From Chryseobacterium indicum (GTDB lineage: Bacteria; Bacteroidota; Bacteroidia; Flavobacteriales; Weeksellaceae), in assembly GCF_021504595.1 (NCBI RefSeq), contig NZ_JACSGT010000002.1, positions 496,001 to 560,000 of the forward strand: a DNA stretch of 64,000 nt, read 5' to 3'. Within the stretch, counting starts at the first letter, position 1; every line of letters begins with the position of its first letter. The position numbers and the translations under genes were made by a program. The notes under the pieces were generated by a model, which made no database searches, was not told where the DNA came from, and worked only from the letters and a program-made list of their open reading frames with translations. Positions 9,601-51,401 of the stretch are shown piece after piece.

Positions 9601-9638
9601 TAAAAAAGACCTACATTTCTGTAAGTCTTTTTTGCTCC
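9601..9638. repeat. Attachment-site-like direct repeat, copy 1 (tRNA-Asn terminator)
   Basis: This stretch holds a stem-loop (AAAAAAGAC at 9602-9610 paired with GTCTTTTTT ending 9633) followed by GCTCC. The same run occurs at 13650-13686 with a single T missing. Copy 1 continues into a recognisable tRNA-Asn 3' half. On the minus strand it is the natural terminator behind that tRNA. Confidence 0.7.
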
Positions 9639-9681
9639 TCCTGCTGGGCTCGAACCAGCGACCCTCTGATTAACAGTCAGA
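9635..9681 (-). pseudogene. 3' half of tRNA-Asn(GTT), island attachment remnant
   Basis: On the minus strand the sequence shows an anticodon arm with stem TCTGA/TCAGA and loop CTGTTAA (anticodon GTT), variable loop GGGTC, T arm GCTGG-TTCGAGC-CCAGC, and the 3' acceptor strand AGGAGGAG. The 5' acceptor strand, D arm and D loop are missing: upstream is AT-rich unrelated DNA. A 3' half ending at the anticodon arm is what a tyrosine-recombinase element leaves at the end distal to the intact tRNA. The intact tRNA-Asn would be expected at the other boundary, possibly beyond this window. Confidence 0.75.
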
Positions 9682-15589: not shown

Positions 15590-15603
15590 TTATGTTGTGT
15601 TTA

Positions 15604-17844: not shown

Positions 17845-17846
17845 TT

Positions 17847-25816: not shown

Positions 25817-28012
25817 TTGAAAAAAAAATTTCCCTTCTATTTACAGCCCGATACCAAAGACTGCGGTCCCACCTGTTTACGGATAGTTAGCAAATACTAC
25901 GGCAAAAGTATATCACTCCAACAAATCCGTATCCTTTCAGAAACAACAAGGGAAGGAAGCAGTCTAATGGGCTTAAGTGATGCCGCAGAAAATTTGGGTT
26001 TCCGTTCCATGGGCGTTCAGATAGATTTCAACACCTTAGCAGAAGAAGTTCCGTTCCCCTGTATTGTCCACTGGAATAAAAATCACTTTGTGGTTGTTTA
26101 TAAAATAGACAACAACAACAAAGTTTATGTTTCCGATCCGGGCTATGGACTGATTACTTATACCAGAGAAGAATTCATCAAGTTATGGATCGGTGAAAAT
26201 GCCAATGAAAAAACAGAAGAAGGTATTGTTCTTATTTTAGAAACAACTCCTGCTTTTTTTCAAACAGAATTTGATGATCAGGAAAGTAAAGCCAGTTTTT
26301 CTTTTCTTTCAAAATATGTACTGAAATATAAATCGTTGGTTATCCAGCTCGCAGTAGGACTTTTGGCAGGAAGTTTACTTTCTCTGATTTTTCCTTTCCT
26401 TACCCAGAGTATTGTCGATGTCGGTATTCAGAATCAGGATCTTAATTTCATTTATCTTGTTCTCTTAGCACAGGTGATGCTTTTTATGGGAAGAATGGGA
26501 ATTGAAATGATCCGAAGCTGGATTTTACTACACCTTTCGGCAAGGATTAATATTTCTATTATTTCCGATTTCTTTATCAAACTCATGAAGCTTCCGATCA
26601 GTTTTTTCGATACGAGAATGACCGGAGATATCATGCAGAGAATTAATGACCATCACAGAATCGAGCAGCTTCTCACAAGTTCTTCGCTGAACACCCTGTT
26701 TTCATTAGTCAATCTTATTATTTTCAGTATTGTACTGTTGTTTTATGATTACAGGCTGTTTATCGTCTATCTTATCGGAGCGGCGGCATACATCGGATGG
26801 ATCAGTTTTTTCCTGAGTAAAAGAAAAGAACTCGATTACAAAAGATTTTCACAGGTTTCTCAGGAACAGAGTAAAGTGATTGAGCTGATTAACGGGATGC
26901 AGGAAATTAAAATGCATAATGCCGAGAAACAGAAAAGATGGGACTGGGAATTTCTTCAGGTTAAATTATTCAAGCTGAGAATAAAGTCTTTGTCTTTGGA
27001 ACAATGGCAGTCCGTAGGAGGAAACTTCATCAATCAGATGAAAGATATTTTGGTCAGCTTTCTTTCTGCAAAACTGGTGCTTGACGGAAATCTTACTTTA
27101 GGAATGATGCTTTCTGTTCAGTATATCATCGGGCAGTTAAACAGTCCATTGCTTCAGTTAATTGATTTCATTAAACAGTTTCAGGATGCCAAAATTTCTT
27201 TGGAAAGGCTGGGTGAAATTCATGATAAGGATGATGAGGAGAATAAGGAAGAGCAATATTCCCACGAAATTCCGGAAAAAGATATTCTGGTGGAAAACGT
27301 TTCATTTAGATATACTGGTTCAGATGTTCCCGTATTTGAAAATCTTACCCTCTGCATTCCCTTTCAGAAAACGACGGCCATTGTTGGAGCCAGCGGAAGC
27401 GGAAAAACGACACTTTTAAAACTTTTAATGAAATTCTACGAACCTTCTCAGGGAGAAATTCGATTAGGAAATACAAAACTCAATAATATTTCCCCAAGAT
27501 TCTGGAGAGATCATTGCGGAGTGGTGATGCAGGAAGGATATGTTTTTAATGACACTATTGCCAATAATATTGCCGTTGGGGAAGATTATGTAGATAAGCA
27601 AAAATTGAGGAGATCCGTGGAAATTGCCAACATTAAAGAATTTATTGAAGAATTGCCATTAAGCTACAACACAAAAATCGGAAATGAAGGTTTGGGAGTG
27701 AGTGGAGGTCAGAAACAGAGACTTTTCATTGCAAGAGCGGTTTATAAATCTCCTGATTATATTTTATTCGATGAAGCAACTTCAGCTTTGGATGCAAACA
27801 ATGAGAAAGTGATCATGGAAAATCTCGAACAGTTCTTCAAAGGAAAAACAGCAGTTGTTATCGCCCACCGGCTTTCCACCGTAAAACATGCCGATAAAAT
27901 CATTGTTTTGGATAAAGGAAAAGTGGTGGAAGAAGGAAATCATGCAGAATTGGTTGCTCTGAGAGGAGAATATTACCGATTGGTGAAGAATCAGTTAGAA
28001 CTTGGAAATTAA
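25817..28012 (+). CDS. C39 peptidase-containing ABC exporter (PCAT)
   Basis: A 731-residue exporter that cuts double-glycine leaders and pumps the core peptide out. The N-terminal C39 domain shows KDCGPTC (catalytic Cys16), His90 in HWNKNHF and Asp107 in SDPGYG. Five or six membrane helices follow, then an ABC ATPase with GASGSGKT, LGVSGGQKQR and ILFDEATSALD. The start is a TTG at 25817: an in-frame TAA sits directly in front of it and no ATG precedes the C39 motif. It probably serves the precursor at 22.4 kb and perhaps the orphan peptides at 6.4-6.8 kb. Confidence 0.93.
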   Translation: MKKKFPFYLQPDTKDCGPTCLRIVSKYYGKSISLQQIRILSETTREGSSLMGLSDAAENLGFRSMGVQIDFNTLAEEVPFPCIVHWNKNHFVVVYKIDNNNKVYVSDPGYGLITYTREEFIKLWIGENANEKTEEGIVLILETTPAFFQTEFDDQESKASFSFLSKYVLKYKSLVIQLAVGLLAGSLLSLIFPFLTQSIVDVGIQNQDLNFIYLVLLAQVMLFMGRMGIEMIRSWILLHLSARINISIISDFFIKLMKLPISFFDTRMTGDIMQRINDHHRIEQLLTSSSLNTLFSLVNLIIFSIVLLFYDYRLFIVYLIGAAAYIGWISFFLSKRKELDYKRFSQVSQEQSKVIELINGMQEIKMHNAEKQKRWDWEFLQVKLFKLRIKSLSLEQWQSVGGNFINQMKDILVSFLSAKLVLDGNLTLGMMLSVQYIIGQLNSPLLQLIDFIKQFQDAKISLERLGEIHDKDDEENKEEQYSHEIPEKDILVENVSFRYTGSDVPVFENLTLCIPFQKTTAIVGASGSGKTTLLKLLMKFYEPSQGEIRLGNTKLNNISPRFWRDHCGVVMQEGYVFNDTIANNIAVGEDYVDKQKLRRSVEIANIKEFIEELPLSYNTKIGNEGLGVSGGQKQRLFIARAVYKSPDYILFDEATSALDANNEKVIMENLEQFFKGKTAVVIAHRLSTVKHADKIIVLDKGKVVEEGNHAELVALRGEYYRLVKNQLELGN

Positions 28013-28022
28013 GAAATACGTA

Positions 28023-29324
28023 ATGGCAGAAAAAGACATTTTAGATAATATTGAGCTTCGTTCTGAAAGTGTTCAGGATATTCTTACCCAGCCTCCTCAT
28101 TGGATGATCCGGTGGGGAAATACCATTATATTTTTAATTTTAGTGCTTATTTTAATAATGAGCTACATTATTAAGTACCCTGAATTTGTTCCGGCTCCTA
28201 TTGTGGTCACTTCCCAGAACCCTCCTGAGAAATTACAGGCAACTATCAATTCTAAAATCGAAAAAATCTTTATTAAAAACCATCAGGAAGTTAAAAAAGA
28301 TCAGGTATTGATGGTCATGCAATCCACCGCTGATTATAAAGATGTCTTAGCATTAAAAAAGCTGATGGATTCCATTACTCCGGATCAGCTACACTCTTTT
28401 CCCTTGCATGAGGCTTCGCGATTTAAATTAGGAGAATTGCAGGGAGACTATAATCAATTTGCAAAAGCCTTTCAGGATGAAGCTTTGTTCACAAGATTAC
28501 AGCCTTATGCCCCGGAAAATTTAGCAGCCAATCAAAGTATCTCTGAGTATAAAAGCCGTATAGCAACACTAAGGCAACAGAAAAGTCTGGAACTTGCCAA
28601 ATATGAACTGACCAAGAAAAACTATCAGCGTTCACAGGAATTGTTTAATCAAGGCGTAATTGCTTCCGTAGAACTGGAAAACGAAAAAATAAAATATCTT
28701 CAGGCACAGCAAAACCTTCAAAACCTGAACATTTCCATATCTCAAATAGAAGAAGGAATTTCTAATTTAAACAAAACGAAAAGTGGGGCGTCCATCAGTA
28801 CAGAAAAAGACAAGATCACGTATTCTTCTCAAACCTTACAATTATTTGAACAATTAAGAAAATCGCTCAAGCAGTGGGAACAAAGCTATCTGGTGATATC
28901 CAATACGGAAGGTGTAGCAAGTTTTCAGCAGTTTTTCGGCGAAAACCAGTTTATTAAAGCGGGTGATCCTATTTTATCTATTTTACCTAAAAACAAAGAA
29001 GCACTAGTAGGAAGAATGCAGGTTCCGGCTACCAACTCAGGTAAGATTGCTTCAGGTGAAAAGGTTTTAATTAAGCTCGATAATTACCGTTATCAGGAAT
29101 ATGGGATTGTAGAAGGAAAGGTTCAGAATATTTCTATTGCTCCTGATGACAAAGGGAATTATTATGTGGATGTACTTCTTCCGAAGGGATTGAAAACTTC
29201 TTACAATAAAAATCTTACTTTCGATAAAGAACTGAAAGGTAATGCAGAAATTGTCACTCAGGATTTGAGGTTAATCGAACGCTTTTTCTACCAGATGAGA
29301 AAATTGTTAGGATATCAAACCTAA
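28023..29324 (+). CDS. HlyD-family periplasmic adaptor
   Basis: A 433-residue membrane-fusion protein from the ATG at 28023, ten bases behind the PCAT stop; an earlier TTG at 28002 is in frame but lies inside the PCAT gene. There is one N-terminal membrane helix (about 27-47), a lipoyl/barrel-sandwich region (NSKIEKIFIKNHQEVKKDQVL), a long coiled coil (about 165-260), and a beta-barrel domain near the end. It links the ABC exporter to an outer-membrane channel. The channel gene is not here. Confidence 0.9.
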   Translation: MAEKDILDNIELRSESVQDILTQPPHWMIRWGNTIIFLILVLILIMSYIIKYPEFVPAPIVVTSQNPPEKLQATINSKIEKIFIKNHQEVKKDQVLMVMQSTADYKDVLALKKLMDSITPDQLHSFPLHEASRFKLGELQGDYNQFAKAFQDEALFTRLQPYAPENLAANQSISEYKSRIATLRQQKSLELAKYELTKKNYQRSQELFNQGVIASVELENEKIKYLQAQQNLQNLNISISQIEEGISNLNKTKSGASISTEKDKITYSSQTLQLFEQLRKSLKQWEQSYLVISNTEGVASFQQFFGENQFIKAGDPILSILPKNKEALVGRMQVPATNSGKIASGEKVLIKLDNYRYQEYGIVEGKVQNISIAPDDKGNYYVDVLLPKGLKTSYNKNLTFDKELKGNAEIVTQDLRLIERFFYQMRKLLGYQT

Positions 29325-29759: not shown

Positions 29760-30158
29760 TCATTCTTTTTTACAGAATTCATGGAGGTAATACGAAACCG
29801 TATCCCAATTAATGCCTTCTTCACGGTTGTGGTTCCTGATCATTTCGTACAGGGCTTTCAGAAAATTTTTCCTTTCAAACAAAACATGACCTGCAATGTC
29901 TTCCAGTTCTTTCGCTTTCTGTTCAAAATGCTCCTCTTTCCAGATAACTGCCGTTTCCAAATTAGAAATTCTTTCGATAATTTCCTGATGTTCCAAATTC
30001 GGAAATACGGGGGTTCCTATATTTTGGGATACAAGAACTAATACCTGACTTTCCTTCGGGATAAAAGGATTAACAATAAACGCCGAAGCCTCTTTTCCGT
30101 TTTCTGCTTCTACCGATCCGAATTCATACTTCACAAAATGAAATTTTCCATTACTCAT
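29760..30158 (-). CDS. Hypothetical plasmid-type protein
   Basis: A 132-residue soluble protein with a predicted coiled-coil centre (ISNLETAVIWKEEHFEQKAKEL) and a Trp/Tyr-containing C-terminus. Nothing recognised. The frame ends in TGA with three further TGAs in the following non-coding-looking stretch, so the first TGA is taken as the true stop. It is the leftmost gene of the plasmid-like region. Confidence 0.55.
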   Translation of the reverse strand: MSNGKFHFVKYEFGSVEAENGKEASAFIVNPFIPKESQVLVLVSQNIGTPVFPNLEHQEIIERISNLETAVIWKEEHFEQKAKELEDIAGHVLFERKNFLKALYEMIRNHNREEGINWDTVSYYLHEFCKKE

Positions 30159-30790: not shown

Positions 30791-31048
30791 ATGAAATCTT
30801 ATACTTTAAAATCATTCAACAGCGGTCAGGTCACTTTGCCGAAAAAGTGGAGAGACCAATTCGATACCGACCTTTTTATAGCGGAAGAAACAAAGGAAGG
30901 TTTACTCATAAAGCCGATTCTTTGAAACTCCTCCGCCCAGACTTCCGAAAAGGTTATTGCCGATTTTATCGAGAATTTTAAAATCCAGGCACAAAAACAA
31001 GGTTTTTCAGGAAAAGAAATTGAGGAAATGATTGAAAAAATAATGTAA
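30791..31048 (+). CDS. AbrB/MazE-like antitoxin-type protein with one in-frame TGA (recoded)
   Basis: An 85-residue SpoVT-AbrB swapped-hairpin protein. Residues 8-21 read SFNSGQVTLPKKWR, the core of the fold. Codon 45 is TGA (30923-30925); the same frame continues through ADFIENFKIQAQ to TAA at 31046. With TGA read as Gly the protein is complete and ends in a normal helix. Such proteins are usually DNA-binding antitoxins or repressors; no partner toxin is adjacent. No conserved motif lies at the TGA, so this gene supports, but does not prove, the Gly reading. Confidence 0.65.
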
Positions 31049-31314
31049 CAACGGAGCAATGGAACGATGTAAAAATGGAAAAATTTAACATTGTGACAAT
31101 GGAAAGTTAACGGCTAAAAAACAAAAATATAATCCGATATTTTTAGAAAATGTAAAGCCGATTTTTTAGGCAAAGTAAAGAAAACCTAGTTCAGGGCTTC
31201 GTTTTTCTCTTTTCTAAAAAAATGAAAATTCTCTTGCATTCACTAATTTAATGAATACTATCATTTTAGTTGATTTGATGAATAGAGATTTTTATTTCCT
31301 ATCCCCGCACCCCT

Positions 31315-31668
31315 ATGAATACAAAAAACATCGTCAAAAAACTAAAGGCAATTGTTAACGAACCTGCCGACAGCATTAGAAAGGAAGTAGCAAAAGAATG
31401 CTTCAATCACGACAGTATAGAATGTTTCTTTTCTGATTTGCTCCATTACGGTTGTGCTTCTTGAATGATAAAAAAGCTTATGTATTATCACGATACTCAT
31501 TCTTTCTATGATAAGTATTATAATGAAATTGAAGAATTAAGGGAAGAATATGAACAAAATACAGGAACACCCATCAAAATAGAAGGTGATTTAAAAAACT
31601 TCTTTGCGTGGTTTGCCTTTGAAGAAACAGCGTATCAGTTAGCCGGTGAATTAGGATTAAATCAATAA
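31315..31668 (+). CDS. Plasmid/phage conserved protein with in-frame TGA at a Gly site (recoded)
   Basis: A 117-residue acidic protein in one frame from ATG at 31315 to TAA at 31668, interrupted only by TGA at 31462. Around it the protein reads HYGCAS-[TGA]-MIKKLMYYHDTHSFYDKYYNEIEELR. I recall a plasmid/phage family with GCxSGM followed by LIYYxDTxxFYDxxYxEIE, in which this position is Gly. The first ATG after the TGA would give a truncated 67-residue product lacking the first third. Function unknown. A C-rich stretch (CCCCGCACCCC) directly precedes the start. Confidence 0.62.
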
Positions 31669-31772
31669 ATGTCAAGGCGTAATTAAAAAAAGGACTTGAA
31701 TTAATCAATTTAATCAATACAACTAATTTAGTCAATTTGACTAATCCTTTTATTTCTTTCCCCACACCTCTC

Positions 31773-32120
31773 ATGAACGAACAAAAAGTAATGAAAAAAT
31801 TACAGGAAATGGCTTCAAGTCCTGAAAACACGCTGAAAAAATTACTCTCTGAGATCATCTTGGAGCAGGATGATTCTTTGGAATTTATAACAGATGCTAA
31901 AAAATTTGGAATAAGTACCCTATACCGGTACGAAGCCGAAGATGATGAATTGGAAGATTTGTACACTGAATACCAACAAGAAATAGAATCACTTATACAA
32001 AATCATATTGGGCAAATGGAGGAAATCCTATCCCGCAGTCCTAACCAAATACACAGCATGGTATGGTGGGCAATGGATTATACTCTATCAGGCATTTACA
32101 ATATTGTTAAAGAGGGCTAA
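31773..32120 (+). CDS. Hypothetical acidic protein
   Basis: A 115-residue protein from the ATG at 31773, which follows a CCCCACACCTC leader resembling that of the preceding gene; an upstream ATG at 31737 would add 12 residues without conservation. It is rich in Glu and helical (LEDLYTEYQQEIESLIQNHIGQ). No family recognised. No in-frame TGA. A terminator covers the end. Confidence 0.6.
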   Translation: MNEQKVMKKLQEMASSPENTLKKLLSEIILEQDDSLEFITDAKKFGISTLYRYEAEDDELEDLYTEYQQEIESLIQNHIGQMEEILSRSPNQIHSMVWWAMDYTLSGIYNIVKEG

Positions 32121-32133
32121 TCCTCTTTTTTTG
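32109..32133. terminator. Convergent hairpin terminator
   Basis: AAAGAGG and CCTCTTT pair around GCTAAT with a T tract. It overlaps the last codons of the + strand gene and faces the end of repB. Confidence 0.75.
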
Positions 32134-32155
32134 TACCATTTTTCATTCTAAATTT

Positions 32156-33382
32156 TTAATTATTTCCAAACTCTTTTTCCAATCTAATATCAATGGCGAT
32201 GTTTAAATATTTGTTGACGATTCCATTTTCGTAATCTTTTTCCACCAGTTTGTACATAAAGGTATTATTCTGCTGAAGCTCCTCTACTACGGACTGGGTA
32301 AACTCGGGGGTTAAGAACTCCCCTCTTAAGATTTTAAGTTTTTGTTCTCTTTCCAAACGCAATTGTTCTGTCTGCTGTTCCTCCGATTGTTGCAGTACTT
32401 TGGCTTGTGCTTTTTTTACTTTTTTAGTAGCTTGCTCGTTAATTTCTTTTTTGTAATAGCCTTCTTTTAAGGCTTTGAGAAAAAATCCGCTTTTCTGTTT
32501 GACGGCAGTAGTTTTAAAATATTCTTTACAGTATTTGAGGGTTTGTATAATAAACTCTTCTTCATAATTTCAGATAATCTGTGATTCTATCGTTGCTTTC
32601 GATACGCCGAAAGCCTTGATTTCATCGTACCAAGAAACCGTTTCAGAGGGATTGTCGCTTTTTGGCAGATATTCTTCATCATCATTTTCAATAACTACTT
32701 TCTTATTTGTGTAGATATTGAAAATGAGTTTTTCTACGCTTCTTGAAGTTTCGGAGATTTCCTCAAAGGTAAAACGGATGTCGGTGTGCTTTCCGATATC
32801 TTCCTGTGCTTTGAGCAGAATCCTCTTTTTAAAATTGGCATATTTTGCGTATTTATCTTCTACACAGAGAATTTCTTTGAGTTCCTGAACTTCAAAAACC
32901 CTTCTTCCAATTCCTTCATAGGACTTTAAAAGTTCATAAAAGCGGATGCTGTGTCAGGATGATATTTTTAAAATGTTCTTTAAATCGTAGAGCAGGAACT
33001 TTGATTTCAGTTGCAGAAGATAAGGCTTTAAAACTGGATGAAAGCTGGCTTCAAGTACTCCTCTTCCGTCTACTTCATACTTGAAAGAGGAAACAAGGGC
33101 GGTTTTAATTTCCTTGTCTTTGCCTTCTTCCTTTATGGGAATTACAATAATCTTTTTAAGCATCGAAGTCGTCAGCTGATTAATTTCAGCGTAAATATTT
33201 TTATTTTTGATCCCGAAGGTCTGGATAATGTTTTTTATGGGAATCGTATAGGTTTTGAAGTCTTTGTCCTTATCCTGTATCATGCTGACAATAAGGGTAA
33301 ACAATCTCATCTCCATGAGATTAAATGAATATCTTGCAGTGACCAGTTCGTGGGACTTTTTGACGGTAAGTTGGTGGATCAT
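32156..33382 (-). CDS. repB: RepB-family plasmid replication initiator with two in-frame TGAs (recoded)
   Basis: A 408-residue initiator of the Rep_3/RepB type in one frame from ATG 33382 to TAA 32156. Residues 1-140 contain KKSHELVTARYSFNLMEMRLF and the FHPVLKPYLLQL region; after the first TGA (32954-32956) comes HSIRFYELLKSYEGIG, the second winged-helix signature that must belong to the same protein. A second TGA is at 32570-32572. No TAA, TAG or frameshift interrupts the gene. RepB binds iterons and opens the plasmid origin; five iterons lie 200 bases upstream. If the TGAs stop translation the protein loses its DNA-binding second half. Confidence 0.82.
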
Positions 33383-33583
33383 GTGTGGATGTACGATGTA
33401 AAGTTGATGGCTGTTGCTGACAGCTGTTGGTTTTTAGTCTTTTTTCTCGTGTCTTTATTCTTTCATTTGATGTTTAAAGCTACATTGACAAGCTACGGTA
33501 TGATTTCAATGGTATATTTCAAAAATATTTTTAATTTTCATTATTGGATTTTGGTTCTTGCTTCTTTTTCCTTGTTTGTTTTG

Positions 33584-33740
33584 CACCCTGAATGTGTTAT
33601 ACTTGATGACAGACCCCAAATAAGTAGCTAATATACCTTGCTTTAGTAGCCTTTCCACCCTGAAAATGGTATACTTCGCCCCGAATTGGTTATGCTTTAC
33701 CTTGTTTTTGGTATACTTTACCCTGAATTTGATACCAAAT
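33584..33740. repeat. Iteron array of a plasmid origin
   Basis: Imperfect 21-22 base direct repeats with consensus CACCCTGAAAATGGTATACTT start at 33584, 33656, 33678, 33699 and 33720; the last four are in tandem. The block lies upstream of repB on its promoter side, and AT-rich DNA follows up to about 33840. This is the layout of an iteron-controlled plasmid origin. Confidence 0.75.
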
Positions 33741-34094
33741 GCTTCGCAAATCCTTTGTCATAAACAAACTTTCAGGCTATAAACAATATAAGAACTTAAA
33801 ATATATAACATCTTATAACAGGGATAAATAGAACTTTTGTTGTGTGATTTTTAAGATTTGTTTTTTATAGGGAAAGTGTAAAAGCAAATATGGAAACCCG
33901 TTTTCATCAGCTTATAGCTTTCTGCTTACGGCTTTTAGCTATGAACGGCTACATTTTTAGGGTGATTCTGTTATAACTGTTTTATATTTAAAAATTGGCT
34001 TTTTGCTTGGTCTTTATCATTTTCACCATTTAAAACCTATTATTGTGATGTTGTCAACGGCTACATTTTCAGGGCGGTCTTTCACTCCTCTGCT
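33741..34094. other. AT-rich origin flank without genes
   Basis: Low-GC DNA, with the phrase CGGCTACATTTTxAGGG occurring twice (near 33951 and 34062) as a direct repeat. I see no ORF in either strand, even with TGA read as sense. Confidence 0.5.
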
Positions 34095-34643
34095 TTAAAA
34101 TTTCAGGTTTCCTGTGGCAACAAGAACAACAAACAGTAATAATACGATAGATACAGCAATAGAAATAATATAGTAGGTCGTGGCTTTTTTGGAGATTCCA
34201 AGCATTTCTCAGTACATCGCAGTGATCTGGTTTTTAGCTTCCTGTTGGTTCATCAGCAGTTGCGAATTGTTTTCTTTATAAAACTCGATGATCTGATTGT
34301 TGGATTTGATTTCTTCTTCCTGTTCCTTGATTTTGAGTTGTAGCATAAATTTTTCCTGTACAAATTCTTGGGCTTCTCACTCCTCTGCTTCGGGATTTGT
34401 TTTTGAGGCATGGGAATTAAATGGAGTTGATGGTTGATTATAGTGGGAATTCTGAATAAGATCTTCTTTGGTTTTCCCAAGTGCCTGCATAATCTTTTCA
34501 AAATCCTCTGCCCTGATGTAGGAAATTTTTCATTTGTCGTTAATTTTGGTACGCATCTGAATGTTGAGCGATTTCACATACTTGTAAAAGCTGGTGTTTC
34601 CGATACCGAGCATGGCTTGTGCTTCTAATTTGGTATATTCCAT
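34095..34643 (-). CDS. Helix-turn-helix protein with membrane anchor and three in-frame TGAs (recoded)
   Basis: A 182-residue protein in one frame from ATG 34643 to TAA 34095. The N-terminus (TKLEAQAMLGIGNTSFYKYVKSL) is a MerR/excisionase-like helix-turn-helix, followed after TGA 34530 by ISYIRAEDFEKIMQALG. A Glu-rich coiled coil with TGA 34377 comes next, then TGA 34209 and a single C-terminal membrane helix (TYYIISIAVSIVLLLF). Read with the standard code it would fall into four fragments, two without a start. The design suggests a plasmid partition or segregation protein tethered to the membrane (inference). Confidence 0.65.
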
Positions 34644-35216
34644 TATTTTTTCTTCTATGAGATAAAATACAGCCCTCTAACTAAAAGTTATCACTCCCCT
34701 GAAAGCGTTTATCATAAAGCGTTTTCATCTTTATCCGCTATAGAATATTCGGGATCGTTCATTTCTAAACGAAGCAGGGATCATCCGTGATCCGTGCTGA
34801 ATACCGAAGGATTCAGGGATGGAATACGGGCTGAACCATGTCCGAATGAAGGGGAGCGTGGCACTGGTTAAAGTATGAGTAAATAAAACAGAAAATCAAG
34901 TGAATTTTAGGGTATCCACCCGAATAAGGATTGAATTCACAGGACATTACCACGAATACAACCTTATTTGTGCGTGTTCACACTGAATGCACCCACGAAC
35001 CACGAAGGATAAAGTAAGTGAATACAGCCAATATTATTGTATCGCAAAACATAGGTATTAACATATAAAAGAGAGGAGTGGATACTTGGATTTTGGAGTA
35101 TCCACTATGGACGATGCCGTATTCAGTCGTAATGTAAAGAAGTTCTTCTTTTAATTAATGATAATTAAACTGCAAATAGATAATTGTCAAGTCAATTTTG
35201 AAATTAATGCAACAAT
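34644..35216. other. Structured non-coding region
   Basis: No ORF. Several hairpins: GATCA-TCCG-TGATC near 34780, CTGAAT-8 nt-ATTCAG near 34798, and a nine-pair AGTGGATAC...GTATCCACT near 35075-35107. GTATCCAC occurs a second time near 34912. CACGAA repeats lie around 34960-35000. Candidates are a single-strand origin, a transfer origin or an antisense RNA; no tRNA fold was found. Confidence 0.5.
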
Positions 35217-36293
35217 TTATCAATGTAACAGCTTAAGAAACCGCTGTTTCTTCATTTCGAGAGCTATTCCAGCCGTCATCAATGGAGGAACACTCATTCC
35301 GCAGACATAACGGGTGGATATGTTACAGAAATCGAAATCTCCCGGAAAACTGCTCATGCGGATATATTCGGTATCATTCAGATTGCGGGCTTCGTTGTAG
35401 TACAACGTAGCTCAGGAAGAGGTTAAGGTTCAGGGAACGGTATTGTCATAGAGGATGTAGGTGCTGAAGAATGCATTATGGGTATTCAGGTTCCTGTATC
35501 TGGCATCGGCAAACTTTAAATTCTGATCTCCGTATTCTACAAACGGTCGTCTTTTTTCGATGGAGGGTCGCAGAGGAGCATGGGTAGTAGAATTTCTGTC
35601 GGCAATGGCTCCAAAATATATAGGAGATTCATTGAAATTTAATATTAATTGGGGGAGTTTCAGTTTCTCTTTTCTTGCAATAAAGAAGATGCGTTCACGA
35701 GCTTGTGGAACTCCCATCGTGGCGGAATTCAATCTGAAGATTTGTACTTCATATCCTAAATTTTCCAATCTTCCATATACTTCAATGGCATATTTATTGG
35801 CTCTTCACGAAATCAATCAAGGCACATTTTCCATCACAACTACTTTGGGTTGGAGTTTGGCAACGGTCTCGCAGAAAACAAATACCAGTTCGTCCAATAT
35901 TTGTTTTTTCTGACCTTCCTTAAATACCTTCTCTTTTCCCCGACATTCTTCACGCTTTCATGACATGGAAAAGGCACTGCAAGGAGGAGAACCGTCCAAA
36001 ATATCCAATTCGTAGAGTTCTTTAGGCAGGTCGTTTCTCCTGTTAAAGTCTCTGATATCCTCATGGTAGAAGTATTCGGGGGAGTGGTTGGTTTGGTAAA
36101 TTTTTGTCATTTTGTTGTCGATTTCTACACCACCCAAATGATGAAACCCTGCGAGTTTGTATCCCATAGTAGAACCACCTCCACCTACAAAGGTTCAGAA
36201 TACCTTTAAAGTTCAGGTTTTATGGTGCAGATTGTTCTTGCAAGGTTTGGGATAATCTTTTGCTAAAGTTCGGTTGTAGGATAAATTTTTCAT
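35217..36293 (-). CDS. DNA (cytosine-5-)-methyltransferase with eight in-frame TGAs (recoded)
   Basis: A complete C5 methyltransferase in one frame from ATG 36293 to TAA 35217. Motif I is GGGGSTMGYKLAGF, motif IV LDGSPPCSAFS with the catalytic Cys, motif VI ENV, then ATMGVPQARERIFFIA (motif VIII) and YVCGMSVPP near the end. TGAs sit at 36213, 36195, 35958, 35817, 35805, 35430, 35412 and 35220 (last one directly before TAA). Family patterns expect Gly in ENVxGLIxG (35817, 35805), in SMSG (35958) and in TLTSSG (35412). Two CGG codons (35940, 35241) stand where I expect Trp. No TAA, TAG or frameshift occurs. It probably modifies the plasmid against restriction. Confidence 0.85.
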
Positions 36294-36390
36294 AGTTTTT
36301 TTTGATTTTGTTAATGGATAATTCTTCGTTTTTGAAGGCTTTTTGTTTTTTTCTTGGTTTGATAATTCTGCGGAGATTTCTTTTATTCAT
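36220..36390 (-). CDS. Possible 56-residue basic peptide overlapping the C5 gene start
   Basis: An open frame (MNKRNLRRIIKPRKKQ...) ends 74 bases inside the methyltransferase gene in another frame. It is Lys/Arg-rich with no known motif. It could be a leader whose translation is coupled to the methyltransferase, or chance. Confidence 0.25.
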   Translation of the reverse strand: MNKRNLRRIIKPRKKQKAFKNEELSINKIKKNYEKFILQPNFSKRLSQTLQEQSAP

Positions 36391-36489
36391 TATTTAAAAA
36401 TTAAAGGATTAAAAAATTTATTTGCTGTAGGCAGAAAGCTATAAGCAATAGGCAATAGGCTTACCGCTTATTGCCTAAAGTCTATGGCT

Positions 36490-37341
36490 TTAAATCGGAT
36501 AATTTGCCACCAAGACTTCGGTCTTTCTTTTGGAAGTTCCTGATTGGCTTTTATGGGAAGCTGACAAAGGCTGGTTAAAGGTTTTTACATACCATCCGTA
36601 CTCTTTAATAAAGATATCCAGTATTTTAGAAGGGTAGTTACTGAGCAGGAATTTTCCTTTGACCTGTGATAGCACCGTAAGATCACGGATAAAATCGTCT
36701 TCATGATAACCGCCATAGTGTCCTTGATTGGTATCAATATACGGCGGATCTGCATAAATAAAGGCATCTTCCCTGTCCCTCGACTGGATCACACGATGGG
36801 CGTGGTTCTGCTCGATCTGAGTAAAGCGGAGACGTTCGGTCATCTTTTCTTTGAAGTTTTCAATTTTATTTTGGAATACAGAGGCACATTTTTGTGATTT
36901 ATCATAACCCCGACTTCCGACTTTTGAGCAGAATCATTGGTTACAGGAAACATAAAACGCCCAGGCCCTGATGACAGGATTTTCGGCAAACAATCGTGGA
37001 GTCTCATAGATAAACAAGGCTTTTTTGTAGGTCTCCCTGCTGTGCAAAGTGGATTCTATTTTTTCGTGGAGTGCCTCGTATTGGGTCTTCAAAACTTCAT
37101 AAAAATTAACGACATTCATATTTACATCGTTGATGATTTCAGAAGGAGCTGGTTCTTTAGCCCGAAAAAGTGCACCGCCTCAAAAGTAAGGCTCTATGTA
37201 GATTTTATGCTCCGGTATGAGTGGAAGGATTTCTTTGAGCATATTCTGTTTGCCTCAGTAGTAGGAGATCGGAGTTTTTAATTTGGGTTTTAGTTGTTGG
37301 TTTTTAGTTTCTGGTTCTTGCTGTTCATTTATTGTGTTCAT
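36490..37341 (-). CDS. DNA adenine methylase (Dam-like) with three in-frame TGAs (recoded)
   Basis: A 283-residue N6-adenine methyltransferase, one frame from ATG 37341 to TAA 36490. TISYY-[TGA]-GKQNML is the YxGGK AdoMet motif, with TGA 37255 as its first Gly; IEPYF-[TGA]-GGALF is ExxFGGGA with TGA 37180 as Gly. The catalytic motif is ADPPYIDT. A third TGA (36934) follows SCNQ. Both CGG codons (37162, 36910) stand in LF-x-AKEP and GS-x-GYDK, where I expect Trp. Without readthrough none of the pieces is an enzyme: the AdoMet and DPPY motifs lie in different fragments. This gene is the strongest evidence for UGA as glycine. Confidence 0.88.
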
Positions 37342-37590: not shown

Positions 37591-38127
37591 TTACTTTTTT
37601 TCCGGTTTTTTATCATCCTGTTTCTTCTCTTCAGGCTTTTTGTCTTCGGGTTTCTGACCTGAAGGTTTCGGAGATTCCGAAACTTTAGCTTGGGGAGTTG
37701 TAAGGATGTTTTCTGTTTTGGGAGCAGATTCTGATTTTTTCTCCGTATTTTCAGCTGGTTTCTGTTCTGTGTCTGTCTTGGTAGAAGATTCAGAAATATT
37801 TTCAGCAGAGGAGTGTACCTTGGAATCCATCCATTCCTGAAGGGTGGGAAGCTGTAAGGCTTCTTTGCTCCATTTACCCATCACATAGAAAATAATACTG
37901 TAGTCGTCCCCAATTAACTGGAGGAGTTCTTCGTTCTCAAGTTCTACGAGACTGTATTCTTCTGGGACTTCCCCATCGAAGTTGTGGGTAATAATTTCAA
38001 TCAGTTCTTTCCTTGAAAAGAATTTTACCATTTCAGGGCTGATTAACTGATACTGTGGCTCTGTTTTAGAGCGGTCTTTGAGCACCGATGAAAAGATTTT
38101 CAAGAGTGCCGTTTTGTTTTCGTTCAT
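37591..38127 (-). CDS. Hypothetical plasmid protein with Lys/Glu/Pro-rich tail
   Basis: A 178-residue protein. The first 110 residues carry SRKELIEIITHNFDGEVPEEYSL and GDDYSIIFYVMGKW, shared with the gene at 39688-40284, so the two are paralogues. The rest is a low-complexity tail (EDKKPEEKKQDDKKPEKK). No function recognised. No in-frame TGA, stop TAA. Confidence 0.6.
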   Translation of the reverse strand: MNENKTALLKIFSSVLKDRSKTEPQYQLISPEMVKFFSRKELIEIITHNFDGEVPEEYSLVELENEELLQLIGDDYSIIFYVMGKWSKEALQLPTLQEWMDSKVHSSAENISESSTKTDTEQKPAENTEKKSESAPKTENILTTPQAKVSESPKPSGQKPEDKKPEEKKQDDKKPEKK

Positions 38128-38628: not shown

Positions 38629-38883
38629 TTATTCAACCAAGTGATCAAAGCCTAATCTTTTGTAGATTTCCATGTTGTGGTCAAAAGCTCCTTTGCAACG
38701 GTGGTTGGGTTCTCTGTTTTCGCCTTCCGTTCCGTGACAGATCTGGTGGGCTTGAAACAGTGTTCTTTTGATGACTTCATTCGCAAGTTTCATATCCTGA
38801 TACAGCCCTTTTTCATTGAGCTTAAACGGACACGTACTGCAATGTTTTTTCATCACGGGAACTTTCTTTGGGTCGATTTCCAT
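38629..38883 (-). CDS. Small Cys-rich protein, possible metal site
   Basis: An 84-residue protein with CSTCPF near residue 15, then HQICHGTEG and RCKGAF. Two Cys pairs plus His suggest a zinc or iron-sulfur site. Proteins with a CxxCPF start are frequent on Bacteroidota plasmids; function unknown. The palindrome AATGATCA/TGATCATT (38603-38626) lies behind it. Confidence 0.6.
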   Translation of the reverse strand: MEIDPKKVPVMKKHCSTCPFKLNEKGLYQDMKLANEVIKRTLFQAHQICHGTEGENREPNHRCKGAFDHNMEIYKRLGFDHLVE

Positions 38884-39152: not shown

Positions 39153-39599
39153 TCATTCTTTTAACCAAATTTCTCTCGCTTTATCAAACCCTACCCATTG
39201 GTGGTTTTCATCATGCCCTCTTGAAGCGAGTTCGTAACGGATGAGTTTTTTTAACGGAATTTTATGCTTCAAAATAAAGCGTAAAATTTCCCCGTCTGTT
39301 ACCGAAATCATGCCCATAATACTTTCCCAATGAGACAAAGGGTCTTCGTCCGAACGGATCTTTTGGATCTGTTCGTAACTTATTTGGGTATAATCTTCAG
39401 GCAGAGGATAGTGAAATTCCATTTCCAAATCTTTCAGCATAGGTTGGTTGGCTACGGCAAACTGATCTTCGGGAGCATCCAGTACGCCAAAGTGTTGGTT
39501 CTGGATTCTGTGTTTAAAGTTCAGCCAGACCGCCCTATCGATGGCTTTTTGCTGGTCTTCATAATATTCAATGAAGGGTTCAATTTTTTTGTGATTCAT
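39153..39599 (-). CDS. Hypothetical plasmid protein
   Basis: A 148-residue protein with an amphipathic helix at the start and the segment YELASRGHDENHQWVGFDKAREIW near the end. It ends at TGA 39153. If TGA is sense, the frame runs 20 codons further through a CGIC pair and a double TGA to TAA at 39093, overlapping the next gene. It is the only gene of the plasmid core (30.3-45.5 kb) that terminates on TGA under the standard code. Confidence 0.6.
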   Translation of the reverse strand: MNHKKIEPFIEYYEDQQKAIDRAVWLNFKHRIQNQHFGVLDAPEDQFAVANQPMLKDLEMEFHYPLPEDYTQISYEQIQKIRSDEDPLSHWESIMGMISVTDGEILRFILKHKIPLKKLIRYELASRGHDENHQWVGFDKAREIWLKE

Positions 39600-39687: not shown

Positions 39688-40284
39688 TTACAAGATCATC
39701 AATTTCAGTTCACTTGCCTGAATTTCATCTTGTGAAATCATGTCCGCCAGTTCTTCCTGTGCTTCCCACTCCGTTTTGTAATATCTGGATAAAGGCGGTG
39801 TGGTGTATTTGTCCTCTTCTTTTACAGAAGATTCAAATACGGCATAGAGAGACTGCTCAGTTCCTGCCTTACAGGATAATGCCCTGAAGTTGCTGTAATC
39901 GTACTCGTCCCAGTCTGCCAATATTTTTGTCATCAGATAATGGGTTTCGAGTTGGAGCTGGCACAGAACGTCATATACTTTCTGCGGAGTGATTTTATCT
40001 TCAATCTCCTGTTTCCATTTTTCGATGGTATAGGACAGAATATGGAAATCGTCTCCAATAGCTTCGTGAAGCTCCTGCTTGTCCATCGTCTCCAAATCGT
40101 AATGTTCGGGTACTTTATCCAGATAAAGCCACTTCAGAATACTCCGAAGTTCTTCTTTACTTAAGATATGGATGAATACAGGGCTGAGATTTTCGACCTT
40201 GTCCCTTTCCATTCTTTGCTGAAGCATTTTCAGAAAACATTGGATCAGGAGACGGTGCCTGTCTTGAGGTTTGAGTTTTTGCAT
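39688..40284 (-). CDS. Hypothetical plasmid protein, paralogue of 37591-38127
   Basis: A 198-residue protein. SKEELRSILKWLYLDKVPEHYDL and GDDFHILSYTIEKW align with the paralogue, defining a shared domain of about 70 residues. It has no charged tail; instead it has a Glu-rich C-terminus. Function unknown. Standard code, stop TAA. Confidence 0.6.
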   Translation of the reverse strand: MQKLKPQDRHRLLIQCFLKMLQQRMERDKVENLSPVFIHILSKEELRSILKWLYLDKVPEHYDLETMDKQELHEAIGDDFHILSYTIEKWKQEIEDKITPQKVYDVLCQLQLETHYLMTKILADWDEYDYSNFRALSCKAGTEQSLYAVFESSVKEEDKYTTPPLSRYYKTEWEAQEELADMISQDEIQASELKLMIL

Positions 40285-40325: not shown

Positions 40326-40934
40326 CTATGGCTTTTTGCAGAGGAATACAAATTCGTCTTCATCGGGCAGGTTATCCAGCGGAAAGCGTTGTTTAATTTT
40401 GACAGGGTAATAATCGCTGTTCCCGTCATAAAGAGAGAAAAAGCGGTCTTCTTCTGAAATCCCCAAAGTGTTGAGACCTTTGTACACTTCAAAAGCATTC
40501 TTATCAAAATCAATCACATACGCCCATTCGCAGAATAAACTGTCTTTTGCAAATTCATAATCATTGTCGGTGACAATTTCTTCCTCGTTTCGGAATTCCA
40601 ATAGCAGTTCGAGTAGTTGTCCTTCTTTCAATTTTCCGAATCGTTCACGATAGCGGAAAGGATACTGCTTTTGAAATTCTTGTTTCTGTTTTGCATTGAG
40701 GATTCCGTTTTCGCATCCGATGGAGTGCAGGAATTCGTCCTGCTGTTTCTGGTCTTCCTGATTCCAAAGACGGACTTTGGGCAGGGTTTCCTGTAAGATT
40801 TCAACACAGGTTGGTTCTTTCAGGAAGCGGAGGAGTGTGACTCCCAATGCTTCGGGATAACCATCCGATTGTTCATATCTTGCTACTTTCACTTCGTGGT
40901 TCTGTACCACTACTGTTAAACTTCTTGTTCCCAT
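40326..40934 (-). CDS. Plasmid/phage protein of the MGTRSLT type
   Basis: A 202-residue protein with the N-terminus MGTRSLTVVVQN and QSDGYPEALGVTLLRFL, matching a widespread phage and plasmid family that starts MGTR and has YRQxDGYPxGxG. Its function is not known. Stop TAG. It lies in the run of small plasmid genes between the methylases and the ATPase. Confidence 0.65.
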   Translation of the reverse strand: MGTRSLTVVVQNHEVKVARYEQSDGYPEALGVTLLRFLKEPTCVEILQETLPKVRLWNQEDQKQQDEFLHSIGCENGILNAKQKQEFQKQYPFRYRERFGKLKEGQLLELLLEFRNEEEIVTDNDYEFAKDSLFCEWAYVIDFDKNAFEVYKGLNTLGISEEDRFFSLYDGNSDYYPVKIKQRFPLDNLPDEDEFVFLCKKP

Positions 40935-41002
40935 AATTTTTTAGTGTTAATTGTTGATTTTTGTTCGTGTTGGATTAAGGAATTAATGATTGGATTCTCA
41001 GT

Positions 41003-41381: not shown

Positions 41382-41511
41382 TGTTTACAATTTTTGACGT
41401 TGGTCTTGTTCTTTCTTCCCCCGCACCCCAATAATGAAGATAGCCTGGGCTTTTCTTTCTCGGGTTTATTTTCTATTCATTGGTACATTGTTCCATTGGT
41501 AGCTTATTCCA

Positions 41512-42762: not shown

Positions 42763-44526
42763 ATGAAGACACACCTTAAAAACTGGAACAACGAGTCCCT
42801 TCTTTGGAAAATTGACAGCTTCGACAATTTTTGGGCAGGGGAATATCTCTTAGCCGAAAATTCTAACGCAAGAGACAAGCGTATCAAACACCACACAATC
42901 AGTATCGACAGGCTTTTACTTTCGTATCCACCTGAGTCGACTTCTTTTTTAGCAAATCTTAAAAGGCGGTTTATCACTTTTGAGGAATATCTCGCTTTAA
43001 TTTCAGGTAAAGGTCAAGGTTCAGGTTTAGGTAAAGGCTCAGCCTCAACCTTTGCCTTGCAATACTGGAAACTGATCAACCAACCTCAATTCAAACTTTT
43101 ACTTCCTGCTTCCGATGACCATGAAACCAATTATCTCGAACTTCTTCAAAAGGCTCTACCTCAGACGAAATCTCTATTTTTTAGTCCACAGCCTGTTCCT
43201 GTTCCGATGGGAGCTTTAAAAAGACATCTCCTTATTACAGGTCGCTCAGGTTCAGGCAAAACGGAATTTTTAAAATCGTTATTCTATCAGTTGCAACACC
43301 GCACCCACCTCAAACAACAAGCTTCTTTAATATTGCTCGATCCTCACGGAGATTTATCCGAGCATCTGTTTTCTCTTGCCCTCAATATTCAAAAACCCGA
43401 AAGGTTATGGTATATTGACCCGACTTGGGACAGTAAAAAGATTCCGTGCATCAATCCATTTTGGCAGGCGGTCAGAGATCCAGTTTTAATAGATCTGATG
43501 GCACAGCAATGGGCGAAGGCGTTTGCGGAACTGATTCCCGAAACAGGAATGACGCTTCAGATGGAGACGATACTCAAGCCCTGTTTGGCGGTAATGTTTG
43601 AAAAAGGGGAATGCGGATTATCGGATTTGCAGCTGTTTATGGACGATACATTGAACGGAGATTGGGTGGAACTGGGCAAAAAATCTTCGAATCCCGTATT
43701 CCGTCAGTTCTTTGAATCGGCATTCCTAAATAAGAAATACAGCCTGACTAAAATGGCAGTCTACACAAGGCTTCAGCATCTGCTCAACAATTACGTTTTT
43801 TACCAAGTAATGAACGGAAAGAGCAGTCTGGATTTAAAGAGAGGGATGCAGGAAGGAAAAGTGATTTTGTTTAATCTCTCGAAAGGAAAATTGGGTGAGG
43901 ATACGTCAAGGGCTCTGGCAAGGTTTGTTTCGGCTACGCTGTTAAGTATTGCCTTGCAGAGAGCCTTCGAGTCGGAGAAAAACAGAAAGTCCTGTTATCT
44001 GTTTATCGATGAATTTCAAAATGTAGCATCCAGTTCTACGGAAGTGATCTTTAGCGAAGCGAGGAAGTACCACCTGCATCTGATTGTGGGAACGCAGACG
44101 GTGGGACAGCTCCCGACTTCGCTCAAGGATATGGTACTGAATAATACGGCAGTAAAATTGGTGGGACTCAATGGTCTTCCTGCTTTAAAAAGTCAGGCTG
44201 GAGATATTGGAGTTTCGTATGCACAGCTGCAGCATCTTCCTCCTTATCATTTTTATCTCAAGTACGATCATTATCCTGCCTTAAAAGTAAAAAGTCCGGA
44301 TGCTTTACTCAGGAACAGTAACAAATATTTTGCTTCGGAAAAACAGAAAGAGCTTCTTACAAAACATTGTCTTGAAAAAAGTGGATTGTATAGGGAACGT
44401 TCCGTTGTGGGAAATCCGCCAGCCCCAAATGATTCTACTGCTCCAACTAATAATGCTGATCCTGATTCCAATACTTCTTCCAGCAATGCTTCCGATTCCG
44501 ATTTTACCCCCGAATTTGGTTTATAG
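42763..44526 (+). CDS. VirD4/TraG-like conjugation ATPase (DUF87/TraM-recognition type)
   Basis: A 587-residue soluble P-loop ATPase. Walker A is GRSGSGKTEF (about residue 164), LLDPHGDL follows, and Walker B is CYLFIDEFQN with the catalytic Asp-Glu. These match the coupling-protein type ATPases that move DNA during conjugation. Unlike classical VirD4 it has no N-terminal membrane helices. The C-terminus is a Ser/Asn/Asp/Pro-rich tail. The gene has about 35 Gly codons, all GGN, so it is not recoded, in contrast to its neighbours to the left. It precedes the replication-relaxation gene by 84 bases. Confidence 0.82.
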   Translation: MKTHLKNWNNESLLWKIDSFDNFWAGEYLLAENSNARDKRIKHHTISIDRLLLSYPPESTSFLANLKRRFITFEEYLALISGKGQGSGLGKGSASTFALQYWKLINQPQFKLLLPASDDHETNYLELLQKALPQTKSLFFSPQPVPVPMGALKRHLLITGRSGSGKTEFLKSLFYQLQHRTHLKQQASLILLDPHGDLSEHLFSLALNIQKPERLWYIDPTWDSKKIPCINPFWQAVRDPVLIDLMAQQWAKAFAELIPETGMTLQMETILKPCLAVMFEKGECGLSDLQLFMDDTLNGDWVELGKKSSNPVFRQFFESAFLNKKYSLTKMAVYTRLQHLLNNYVFYQVMNGKSSLDLKRGMQEGKVILFNLSKGKLGEDTSRALARFVSATLLSIALQRAFESEKNRKSCYLFIDEFQNVASSSTEVIFSEARKYHLHLIVGTQTVGQLPTSLKDMVLNNTAVKLVGLNGLPALKSQAGDIGVSYAQLQHLPPYHFYLKYDHYPALKVKSPDALLRNSNKYFASEKQKELLTKHCLEKSGLYRERSVVGNPPAPNDSTAPTNNADPDSNTSSSNASDSDFTPEFGL

Positions 44527-44610: not shown

Positions 44611-45462
44611 ATGAATGCTTCAAAATTATCTTTTTACCGTTTGAGTCCTTTGCAGGAAAAAATACTGACCTCACTGGCGTGTTATAAGTTTTTAACGACA
44701 GGACAGTTGTTGGAGTTAAGCTGTGTATCGGAAAGGACATATCTCAACAAACTGCTCGTGAATTTAAAGAACCGTTCCCAGCCTCTGGTCGGATCTATTA
44801 CTTTCGGGGTGCATCCCAAGTTTGGGAAGCTGCAATCGGTACATTATATTACTGCTCACAGTGTGGAGTTGTTGCGGGAGTTGTTTGGGGAGGAGTATCC
44901 TGTGAGGCATCCGAAAGGAAAACACGGCTTGTTCCAGCAGGATTACTTCCACAGGGTGCATACTATTGAGGTGCATATTGCGATGATGAGATGGGCGGAG
45001 CAAAACGGAATTGAGGTGGGATATTTTTGTACCTATTTCGATAAATTGTCTTCGGGGAAAGATAAGGGTTACAAGGCGGAATCGGCAATTCGTTTAAGTG
45101 ACAACGAGTATCTGATTGCGGATGCAATATGTTTATTGAAAACTCCTGCAAGAGAGGAGTTATACGCTATTGAAATGTACAACGGGAACGATACCCACCG
45201 TGTTCACGGTTCACTCTTTCAGCATCTGCAGGCTTTAAAGAAAGGGCAACCTTCGAGGCAGTTTGAATTGGAATACGGTTCACGTGTGCTGTGTGTGTTT
45301 GAATTCGATGCATATAAGGTTCAGGCAATGAAAAGACTGGCGGAGGATGAGCGTTTTGCCAACGCTAAAAAACATTTTCTGTTTAAATCATTGGAGGAAT
45401 TGAAAACACAGGACTTTTTTGAGTGGCGATTGTTTGATGGAGAGAAAACGGGATTGTTTTAG
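44611..45462 (+). CDS. Replication-relaxation family protein
   Basis: A 283-residue protein with an N-terminal winged helix (LQEKILTSLACYKFLTTGQLLEL) and the downstream pattern of the Replic_Relax family (HYITAHSVELLRELFG, FQQDYFHRVHTIEVHIAMM, IADAICLLK, AIEMYNG). Members are linked to plasmid transfer and replication. It follows the ATPase in the same direction. Its 3' end has a decayed copy at 47.9 kb. Standard code, stop TAG. Confidence 0.8.
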   Translation: MNASKLSFYRLSPLQEKILTSLACYKFLTTGQLLELSCVSERTYLNKLLVNLKNRSQPLVGSITFGVHPKFGKLQSVHYITAHSVELLRELFGEEYPVRHPKGKHGLFQQDYFHRVHTIEVHIAMMRWAEQNGIEVGYFCTYFDKLSSGKDKGYKAESAIRLSDNEYLIADAICLLKTPAREELYAIEMYNGNDTHRVHGSLFQHLQALKKGQPSRQFELEYGSRVLCVFEFDAYKVQAMKRLAEDERFANAKKHFLFKSLEELKTQDFFEWRLFDGEKTGLF

Positions 45463-51271: not shown

Positions 51272-51401
51272 AATACTATATTTAAAAACGCTTACTCTAT
51301 ACCGTTTTCGGCTTCCCGGATTCAACCACAAACCAACGTACAAAAAAAACGCCTCCCAAAAATTTTGAGAAAGCGGTATGTTTTTTTGAGGAAACGGTAA
51401 A

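Follow-up and report, generated by a model that had tools for sequence, protein, structure and literature searches.

A change of genetic code is commonly seen as a barrier to the exchange of genes. Suppressor tRNAs are encoded by phages whose late genes are stop-recoded; an element in which two genetic codes are fitted to two hosts is not known to us, and a search of open PMC papers did not find a mixed-code mobile element of such a kind. Absconditabacteria are reported to read UGA as Gly and to use both CGA and CGG for Trp (Shulgina and Eddy 2021, PMC8629427), while phages possibly infecting both code-25 and standard-code hosts are described as typically using stops other than TGA (Liu et al. 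2023, PMC10746230). The locus considered here is a block of genes at 30791-37341 of a 64,000-nucleotide stretch of the genome of Chryseobacterium indicum (the window; G000:C2:496001-560000 of a 4.84-Mb genome). Six of these genes contain in-frame TGA codons and lie in a chromosomal island among genes written in the standard code.

The recoded genes and their code

The block comprises the following features (all Pfam E values marked code 25 were obtained with that translation).

30791..31048, + strand: AbrB/MazE-like protein, recoded, 1 TGA (PF04014, E=7.5e-6)
31315..31668, + strand: DUF7222 protein, recoded, 1 TGA at GCxSGM (PF23864, E=4e-23, code 25)
31773..32120, + strand: DUF7222-like protein with no TGA and one CGG; the seventh gene of the block, counted apart from the six recoded genes
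32156..33382, - strand: Rep3-type replication initiator (RepB), recoded, 2 TGA (PF01051, E=9.6e-37; PF21205, E=1.7e-13; code 25)
33580..33734: iteron-like direct repeats (~25 bp) beside RepB, a probable replication origin
34095..34643, - strand: helix-turn-helix (HTH)/C-terminal membrane-anchor protein, recoded, 3 TGA
35217..36293, - strand: C5-cytosine DNA methyltransferase (C5), recoded, 8 TGA, 5 CGA or CGG codons (CGR) as Trp and 0 TGG (PF00145, E=1.3e-43)
36490..37341, - strand: D12-class adenine-N6 DNA methyltransferase (Dam-like; Dam below), recoded, 3 TGA and 3 CGR as Trp (PF02086, E=2.4e-27)

The first-pass annotation had described six adjacent genes with 18 in-frame TGA and no TAA or TAG, and a recount over their 1,432 codons gave the same figures; one of the 18 (35222, immediately 5' of the TAA of C5) is possibly half of an ordinary double stop. 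Shuffling of the same codons, each codon position separately (n=500), gave means of 41 TAA, 21 TAG and 11.5 TGA, so that TGA without TAA or TAG is far from what chance would produce. The two other frames of the six genes contained TGA, TAA and TAG in the numbers 30/30/23 and 43/45/2. With code 25, both the WH1 and the WH2 domain of Rep3 were found in RepB (Pfam). The repeats beside it are degenerate, with units of 25-26 bp in 3 and 2 copies. No family match above cut-off was obtained for the HTH protein, and its description was drawn from its sequence.

A codon table was made with TGA, CGA and CGG masked in 20 genes (6 RepB, 7 C5 and 7 Dam) from the family of related islands described below. 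These were set against 319 standard-like homologues, at columns with a conservation of 80 % or more. The homologue pool consisted of 360 database proteins (the best 120 listed per search), 41 of which were set aside as recoded-like. This split was made by Trp at mostly-Gly columns, which gives a mild bias to Gly for TGA and leaves CGR unaffected. As only five such columns were available in RepB, some recoded RepB proteins remain in its standard set. The RepB evidence bears mainly on UGA.

At the conserved columns of the three families TGA matched Gly in 71 of 75 cases, in agreement with the earlier proposal that Gly is the residue at conserved sites. CGA matched Trp in 16/16 cases, CGG in 24/24 and TGG in 14/14. 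Arg columns were matched by CGT (47/48), CGC (13/13), AGA (49/50) and AGG (27/27), and for all remaining codons of the table the standard residue was the commonest. The codon at a given Trp column is TGG, CGG or CGA, depending on the island. This shows that the code of the module, as read from the alignments of family RepB, C5 and Dam, has UGA as Gly and both CGA and CGG as Trp. The first-pass annotation was thus correct for UGA but missed CGA and CGG, so that the code differs from the standard at three codons and narrows from table 25 to the Absconditabacteria variant. Its statement that TGG still encodes Trp also holds, but TGG is the minority choice, with 21 TGG against 36 CGG and 26 CGA among the Trp-type codons of 26 recoded family genes.

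A family of islands with two codes

Recoded genes occur beside standard-coded ones in nine related islands, from seven genomes and three genera (for F to J the region was covered in part).

A1 (the island of the window) and A2: genome G000
C and H: genome G063
D: genome G004
E: genome G074
F: genome G897 (contig JAFDZI010000031.1 of a metagenome-assembled genome)
I: genome G572
J: genome G029

Recoded RepB and HTH genes occur in seven of them (A1, A2, C, D, E, F and I), recoded C5 in seven (A1, A2, C, D, E, F and H) and recoded Dam in eight (all but I). Relatives of the HTH protein have 1-2 TGA each in six other islands; relatives of the DUF7222 protein have 2 TGA in island E and none in H and J.

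Homology searches separated recoded from standard-coded relatives. The five places closest to RepB in 173 genomes of the genus (100, 73, 72, 55 and 52 % identity) all contained TGA, and 19 of the 20 further matches listed (at most 40 %, mostly 25-31 %) had none, the other having 1; a search of 395 genomes of the order added G572, from another family, with 4 TGA. For C5, all seven places of at least 75 % identity among the matches listed from 296 genomes of the family carried 4-8 TGA. Long relatives at 70, 68 and 47 %, among the matches listed, had no TGA, and some short or remote matches had stops. For Dam, three places of at least 60 % in 395 genomes of the phylum (G000 twice and G029) had 3-6 TGA, and the next-best place (57 %, G200) had none. 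An extra TAA in the second G000 Dam lies before the start, and one in the C5 gene of G063:C17 is the gene's own end. Independent assemblies, including that of C. limigenitum strain SUR2, share TGA and CGR at Gly and Trp columns, and some metagenome proteins with the same signature have Trp at conserved Gly columns (as under table 4) and Arg at conserved Trp columns. The view that the block is not a product of decay is confirmed by these relatives, which exclude decay. In public protein sets the genes appear as fragments (apparently P0259 of Chryseobacterium sp. EO14, 241 aa) or with Trp at Gly sites, and recoded genes may have been overlooked for this reason.

A phage origin was considered and rejected: 23 C5 and 74 Dam loci from IMG/VR gave no match with more than one stop (10 matches had one), and for RepB there was no match. 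Plasmids were without a match at the DNA level, and the only relatives found among them with protein queries were below 60 %.

The genes on either side of the block were examined for their code. The standard-coded island genes of the window near the block are as follows.

29760..30158, - strand: standard-coded, ends in TGA; relatives at L030, L007 and L033 are without a stop in the aligned part
37591..38127, - strand: standard-coded
38629..38883, - strand: standard-coded
39153..39599, - strand: standard-coded, ends in TGA
39688..40284, - strand: standard-coded
40326..40934, - strand: standard-coded

Relatives of the conserved genes flanking the block were stop-free in their aligned parts. Eight standard-coded families had 1 TGA in a total of 10,567 codons, counted in island open reading frames (ORFs) that end by construction at the first TAA or TAG. 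In these families CGR aligned mostly with Arg, with Trp outside the seven commonest residues, and TGG aligned with Trp. This shows that the conserved flanking island genes, to judge by their codon use, follow the standard code.

For islands C and D, the closest pair, the ratio of nonsynonymous to synonymous substitution rates (dN/dS) was 0.083 for RepB, 0.052 for HTH, 0.105 for C5 and 0.092 for Dam, with dS of 0.23-0.53; the eight standard-coded families had ratios of 0.10-0.24 (dS 0.06-0.60, overlapping that of the recoded genes). For the recoded genes the pair A2/E was also compared (dS >1.3, undefined for Dam). Both gene sets are under purifying selection in C/D. The Dam tree and the tree of an island ATPase contained the same groups (A2+E, H+J and C+D+F), the deeper forks of the ATPase tree being poorly resolved. 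Because these groups are shared, both codes appear to have travelled together.

The ATPase itself and the gene next to it are standard-coded in the window and recoded, or interrupted by TGA, in other islands.

42763..44526, + strand: coupling (DNA-translocating) ATPase, HerA/VirD4-like, in the standard code; the versions of islands H, J and I are recoded
44611..45462, + strand: conserved gene adjoining that of the ATPase, in the standard code; the versions of H and J each have 3 in-frame TGA

The ATPase gene is free of TGA in A1, A2, C, D, E and F; that of H has 8, that of J 9 and that of I 5. Four of the eight in H and four of the nine in J are at all-Gly columns, with one more each at a five-of-six-Gly column, and the Walker A region is included; in I, three of the five are at all-Gly columns. 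CGR fell at Trp columns of the standard-coded islands in 3/6 cases for H and 2/3 for J, and never at an all-Arg column. The ATPase ORFs of H, J and I may be incomplete, as their N-terminal parts are short or diverged. In the neighbouring family one of the 3 TGA of H and of J is at an all-Gly column, and one CGA of H is at a column with Arg in three standard-coded islands and TGG in J. Island J also encodes a recoded serine recombinase of 636 aa, whose gene contains 15 TGA (Pfam Resolvase, E=5.9e-25). A pair of a Phd/YefM-like antitoxin and a YafQ toxin with in-frame TGA is present in C, D, F and J; in the Pfam check of the D and J pairs, the toxins read with code 25 matched YafQ at E ~1e-23 and the antitoxins were below the Pfam cut-off.

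Direct repeats derived from tRNA-Asn mark the ends of the island; a recombinase gene lies beyond the window.

9630..9676: attL, a 47-bp copy of the tRNA-Asn 3' end, at the left island end
G000:C2:587739-587785 (window-equivalent 91739, beyond the window): right-end att copy of the island of the window
G000:C2:672811-672853: third att copy, inside an intact tRNA-Asn
Window-equivalent 69903-71420 (L088:5903-7420): serine recombinase

The three repeats delimit two tandem islands of 82 kb (A1) and 85 kb (A2). Synteny with G050, a genome of the same species without the element, stops at window position 9679. These observations support the placement of the recoded module within an 82-kb chromosomal island integrated at tRNA-Asn.

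Several further features were recorded in and around the islands. In G050 an 84 % similar att repeat lies ~15 kb on (G050:C1:3200982-3216012), and a different island may therefore use the same tRNA-Asn site. Cargo of the window island (14732-20024 and 25817-29324) includes lanthipeptide dehydratase, prolyl oligopeptidase and C39-peptidase ABC exporter/HlyD genes; 13946-17870 is 94 % identical in DNA in A2, backbone genes being less alike (64-80 % in DNA). Cargo of island C includes a match to the LmuA (Lamassu-type) defence protein (L031:3056-4147; PADLOC, E=1.4e-68). A DDE transposase element at window 61560-62790 has a 99.7 % identical counterpart close to the right island end (G000:C2:586218-587446). 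A strongly skewed stretch at 40935-42760 (AT skew -0.42 at 41001-42000), between the standard-coded genes and the ATPase, is possibly a transfer origin or regulatory region. The DUF805b RNA motif (RF02914) was found at 6359-6391 and 51289-51321, one hit above and one just below the gathering score.

tRNA genes of the carriers

The tRNA genes of the carriers were searched for anticodons that could serve the module. In the C. indicum genome the stretches holding Rfam tRNA hits (86 at E<=0.001 and 96 at E<=10, all but C1:3148943 being read) yielded no tRNA call with a UCA anticodon; weak tRNA-like hits were read by eye as att remnants or degenerate copies and set aside. A first pattern for tRNA(UCA) gave 20 hits in six records of five genomes (G561 being the same genome as G063), none of which folded. 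The best of these (L173, pairs 4/5, 4/5 and 5/7) had no ARAGORN call and was rejected. A second pattern, with any base at 37 and a stricter T arm, gave 14 places in seven genomes (G572 and G897 being covered by this pattern only) and no tRNA(UCA): three had already been found, eight were called tRNA-Met or tRNA-Glu by ARAGORN and three were uncalled. The matching UCG pattern recovered the tRNA labelled Arg(UCG) in all five genomes tested, which indicates that the pattern method works.

The Arg label that ARAGORN gives to tRNA(UCG) rests on the anticodon. By our own reading this tRNA has A20 and A73 in 5/5 carriers, whereas the rule given for a CGR-reading Trp tRNA is G73 and not A20 (PMC8629427); it is therefore taken as Arg-type and not as a Trp acceptor. 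No CCG-anticodon tRNA was reported around the islands, where it was searched for. Within the element no UCA anticodon was found by ARAGORN (window, loci and island regions) or by a home-made cloverleaf scan, nor, in the window and L030-L032, by Rfam with a permissive E-value. The home-made scan gave two UCG-like places in the region of island D (63324 and 80694), with a score of 22.6 against 24-25 for two real tRNAs and without an ARAGORN call. A1 has no tRNA gene and A2 only the bounding tRNA-Asn; ordinary tRNAs are present near other islands (Met in the C region; Leu, Gly(GCC) and Leu in the D region; Leu(CAA) in the I region).

These searches support the absence of a suitable tRNA. With no tRNA for UGA found and tRNA(UCG) of the Arg type, correct translation of the module in the carrier is unlikely, and since tRNA-Gly(UCA) was not found in the carriers they do not appear to use the Absconditabacteria code. 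The claim of the first-pass annotation that UGA is read as Gly in this bacterium is thus not upheld.

Other tRNA-related features of the genome were also seen. Arrays of 17 and 6 tRNA genes (G000:C3:136166-139234 and 155890-157432; L064 and L065) have low-scoring or odd members, among them a tRNA-Asp with anticodon ATC and a degenerate tRNA at 156817, and resemble a mobile element, perhaps a large phage. Two adjacent tRNA genes were called with a four-base anticodon, CTTC (G000:C1:316909-317059; L079). tRNA-Arg-like copies with unusual anticodon loops beside tRNA-Arg(TCT) (G000:C1:2584502-2586830; L082 and L089) are probably att scars of other integrations.

Interpretation and comparison with known systems

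The explanation that we consider best, with a probability of about 0.68, is that the block is the plasmid-maintenance module of an 82-kb bilingual integrative element and is made only in an Absconditabacteria-coded cell. We regard it as nearly as probable that one molecule holds two gene sets in two codes, each readable in only one of two hosts that belong to separate phyla (a flavobacterium on one side, an epibiont of the Absconditabacteria type on the other), that the code signals the host, and that single genes, that of the coupling ATPase among them, have switched codes in the course of evolution. In a Chryseobacterium-type host the element would reside in the chromosome at tRNA-Asn with its standard-coded genes in use and the module not correctly translatable. 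Its DNA would then move into an Absconditabacteria-coded cell, probably aided by the HerA/VirD4-like ATPase. There the module would be translated, Rep3 would initiate replication and the methylases may shield the DNA of the element from restriction. In the sister islands the YafQ/Phd pair could provide addiction and the recoded serine recombinase integration. The genetic code would act as a host-identity switch.

Several observations weigh against this reading. At 4 of the 75 conserved TGA positions the column is not Gly (3 Pro and 1 Ser), and other TGA codons of the ATPase are at variable, unaligned, Gln (J), Ser (J and I) or Leu-like (I) columns. A decayed C5 remnant (52 %, partial) at G074:C24:3751-4290 has 3 TGA and 1 TAG. 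CGG occurs 36 times in the 7,996 codons of the module (~45 per 10,000), against fewer than 7 per 10,000 reported for all but one Absconditabacteria species (PMC8629427); CGA, at ~33 per 10,000, is inside the range given there for Absconditabacteria (<37). The closest standard-coded relatives are from Flavobacteriia, so that the module is recoded flavobacterial DNA and not Absconditabacteria DNA by descent. A GTDB-wide C5 scan with exact peptide patterns gave five loci, none from Absconditabacteria, no search having been aimed at Absconditabacteria genomes. Among the scanned island proteins, a part of all, no relaxase or type IV secretion system (T4SS) was recognised, only the HerA/VirD4-like ATPase. 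The tRNA search of the C. indicum genome scored 150 of 382 first-look candidates. Published partner suggestions for Absconditabacteria are Fusobacteria, Firmicutes or a gammaproteobacterium (PMC8406219); a moderate correlation of Absconditabacteria and Bacteroidetes coverage in mats, given by the same source, fits the proposed pairing and is no proof of it. Shine-Dalgarno (SD) use was uninformative as a test of the host, Flavobacteriia and SR1 both being listed as SD-scarce.

We know of no recoded Bacteroidota genome, and count this against a second host from another lineage with the same triple code, either a Gracilibacterium with CGR as Trp or an undescribed flavobacterial symbiont. Such a host is unlikely, although it would suit the flavobacterial affinity of the module and its high use of CGG, and CGG is predicted to mean Trp in some Gracilibacteria; UGA as Gly together with both CGA and CGG as Trp is published for Absconditabacteria (PMC8629427). 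The purifying selection shows that the proteins are made somewhere, and this could be in a Chryseobacterium-type cell in particular circumstances, with tRNAs that went unrecognised or came from a helper. Phages that mix codes and have suppressor tRNAs exist, which counts for this idea. However, two reassignments would be needed at once, tRNA(UCA) was not found in island regions or carriers, the Arg-type tRNA(UCG) of the 5/5 genomes tested would compete at CGR, and the island neighbours use CGR mostly at Arg positions, two of them (29760-30158 and 39153-39599) ending in TGA. Reading in the carrier is accordingly improbable, somewhat more so than a second host from another lineage.

The failure to find a translation route in the carriers, together with the C5 remnant, would also be expected if the module were a relic, formed in a recoded host and carried today by Bacteroidota as a silent passenger. 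This is very improbable given that the nine islands retain mostly full-length recoded genes, that dN/dS is 0.05-0.11 in the closest pair and that recoded and standard-coded genes sort into the same island groups. Pseudogenes, or sequencing or assembly error, are the usual reading of stop-bearing genes in a single genome and have almost no probability here. The six genes contain no TAA or TAG and show no mixed stops, indels or relaxed selection, TGA and CGR recur at Gly and Trp columns in independent assemblies, and the signature is present in metagenome proteins; the codon table and the C5 relatives refute this reading.

In this family mobile genes are kept under selection in a code apparently unreadable to their carrier, beside genes that it can read. 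If the bilingual explanation is true, the islands hint, at the molecular level, that Flavobacteriia have a partner of the Absconditabacteria type, offer a possible natural DNA route into uncultured code-25 bacteria, and would make it possible to test directly whether DNA passes from one code to another.

The element shares features with several known systems and differs from each. Like integrative and conjugative or mobilizable elements at tRNA genes, it has tRNA-Asn att repeats, tandem copies, a recombinase and a coupling-type ATPase; it differs in its foreign-coded replicon and in that relaxase and T4SS were not recognised in the proteins scanned. With the Rep3 iteron plasmids of Bacteroidota it shares a Rep3_N/Rep3_C initiator and iteron-like repeats, but here the initiator is apparently unreadable in the carrier and the replicon is within an integrated island. 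Stop-recoded phages are likewise part recoded and part standard, whereas here two sense codons are also changed and the island yielded no suppressor tRNA. The Absconditabacteria (SR1) code gives these three codons identical meanings and is otherwise standard (PMC8629427). Here, in contrast, the code is limited to a module in a standard-coded flavobacterial chromosome, with genes of flavobacterial ancestry, CGR jointly outnumbers TGG and the cognate tRNA was not found in the cell. Phages of Absconditabacteria and Gracilibacteria are, like the island, mobile DNA thought to meet both types of code; they are described as avoiding TGA, with one gene set for both hosts (PMC10746230), while the island has separate sets with one code each. 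An island in which plasmid-replication genes are in another code than their neighbours suggests an element built for two very different hosts.

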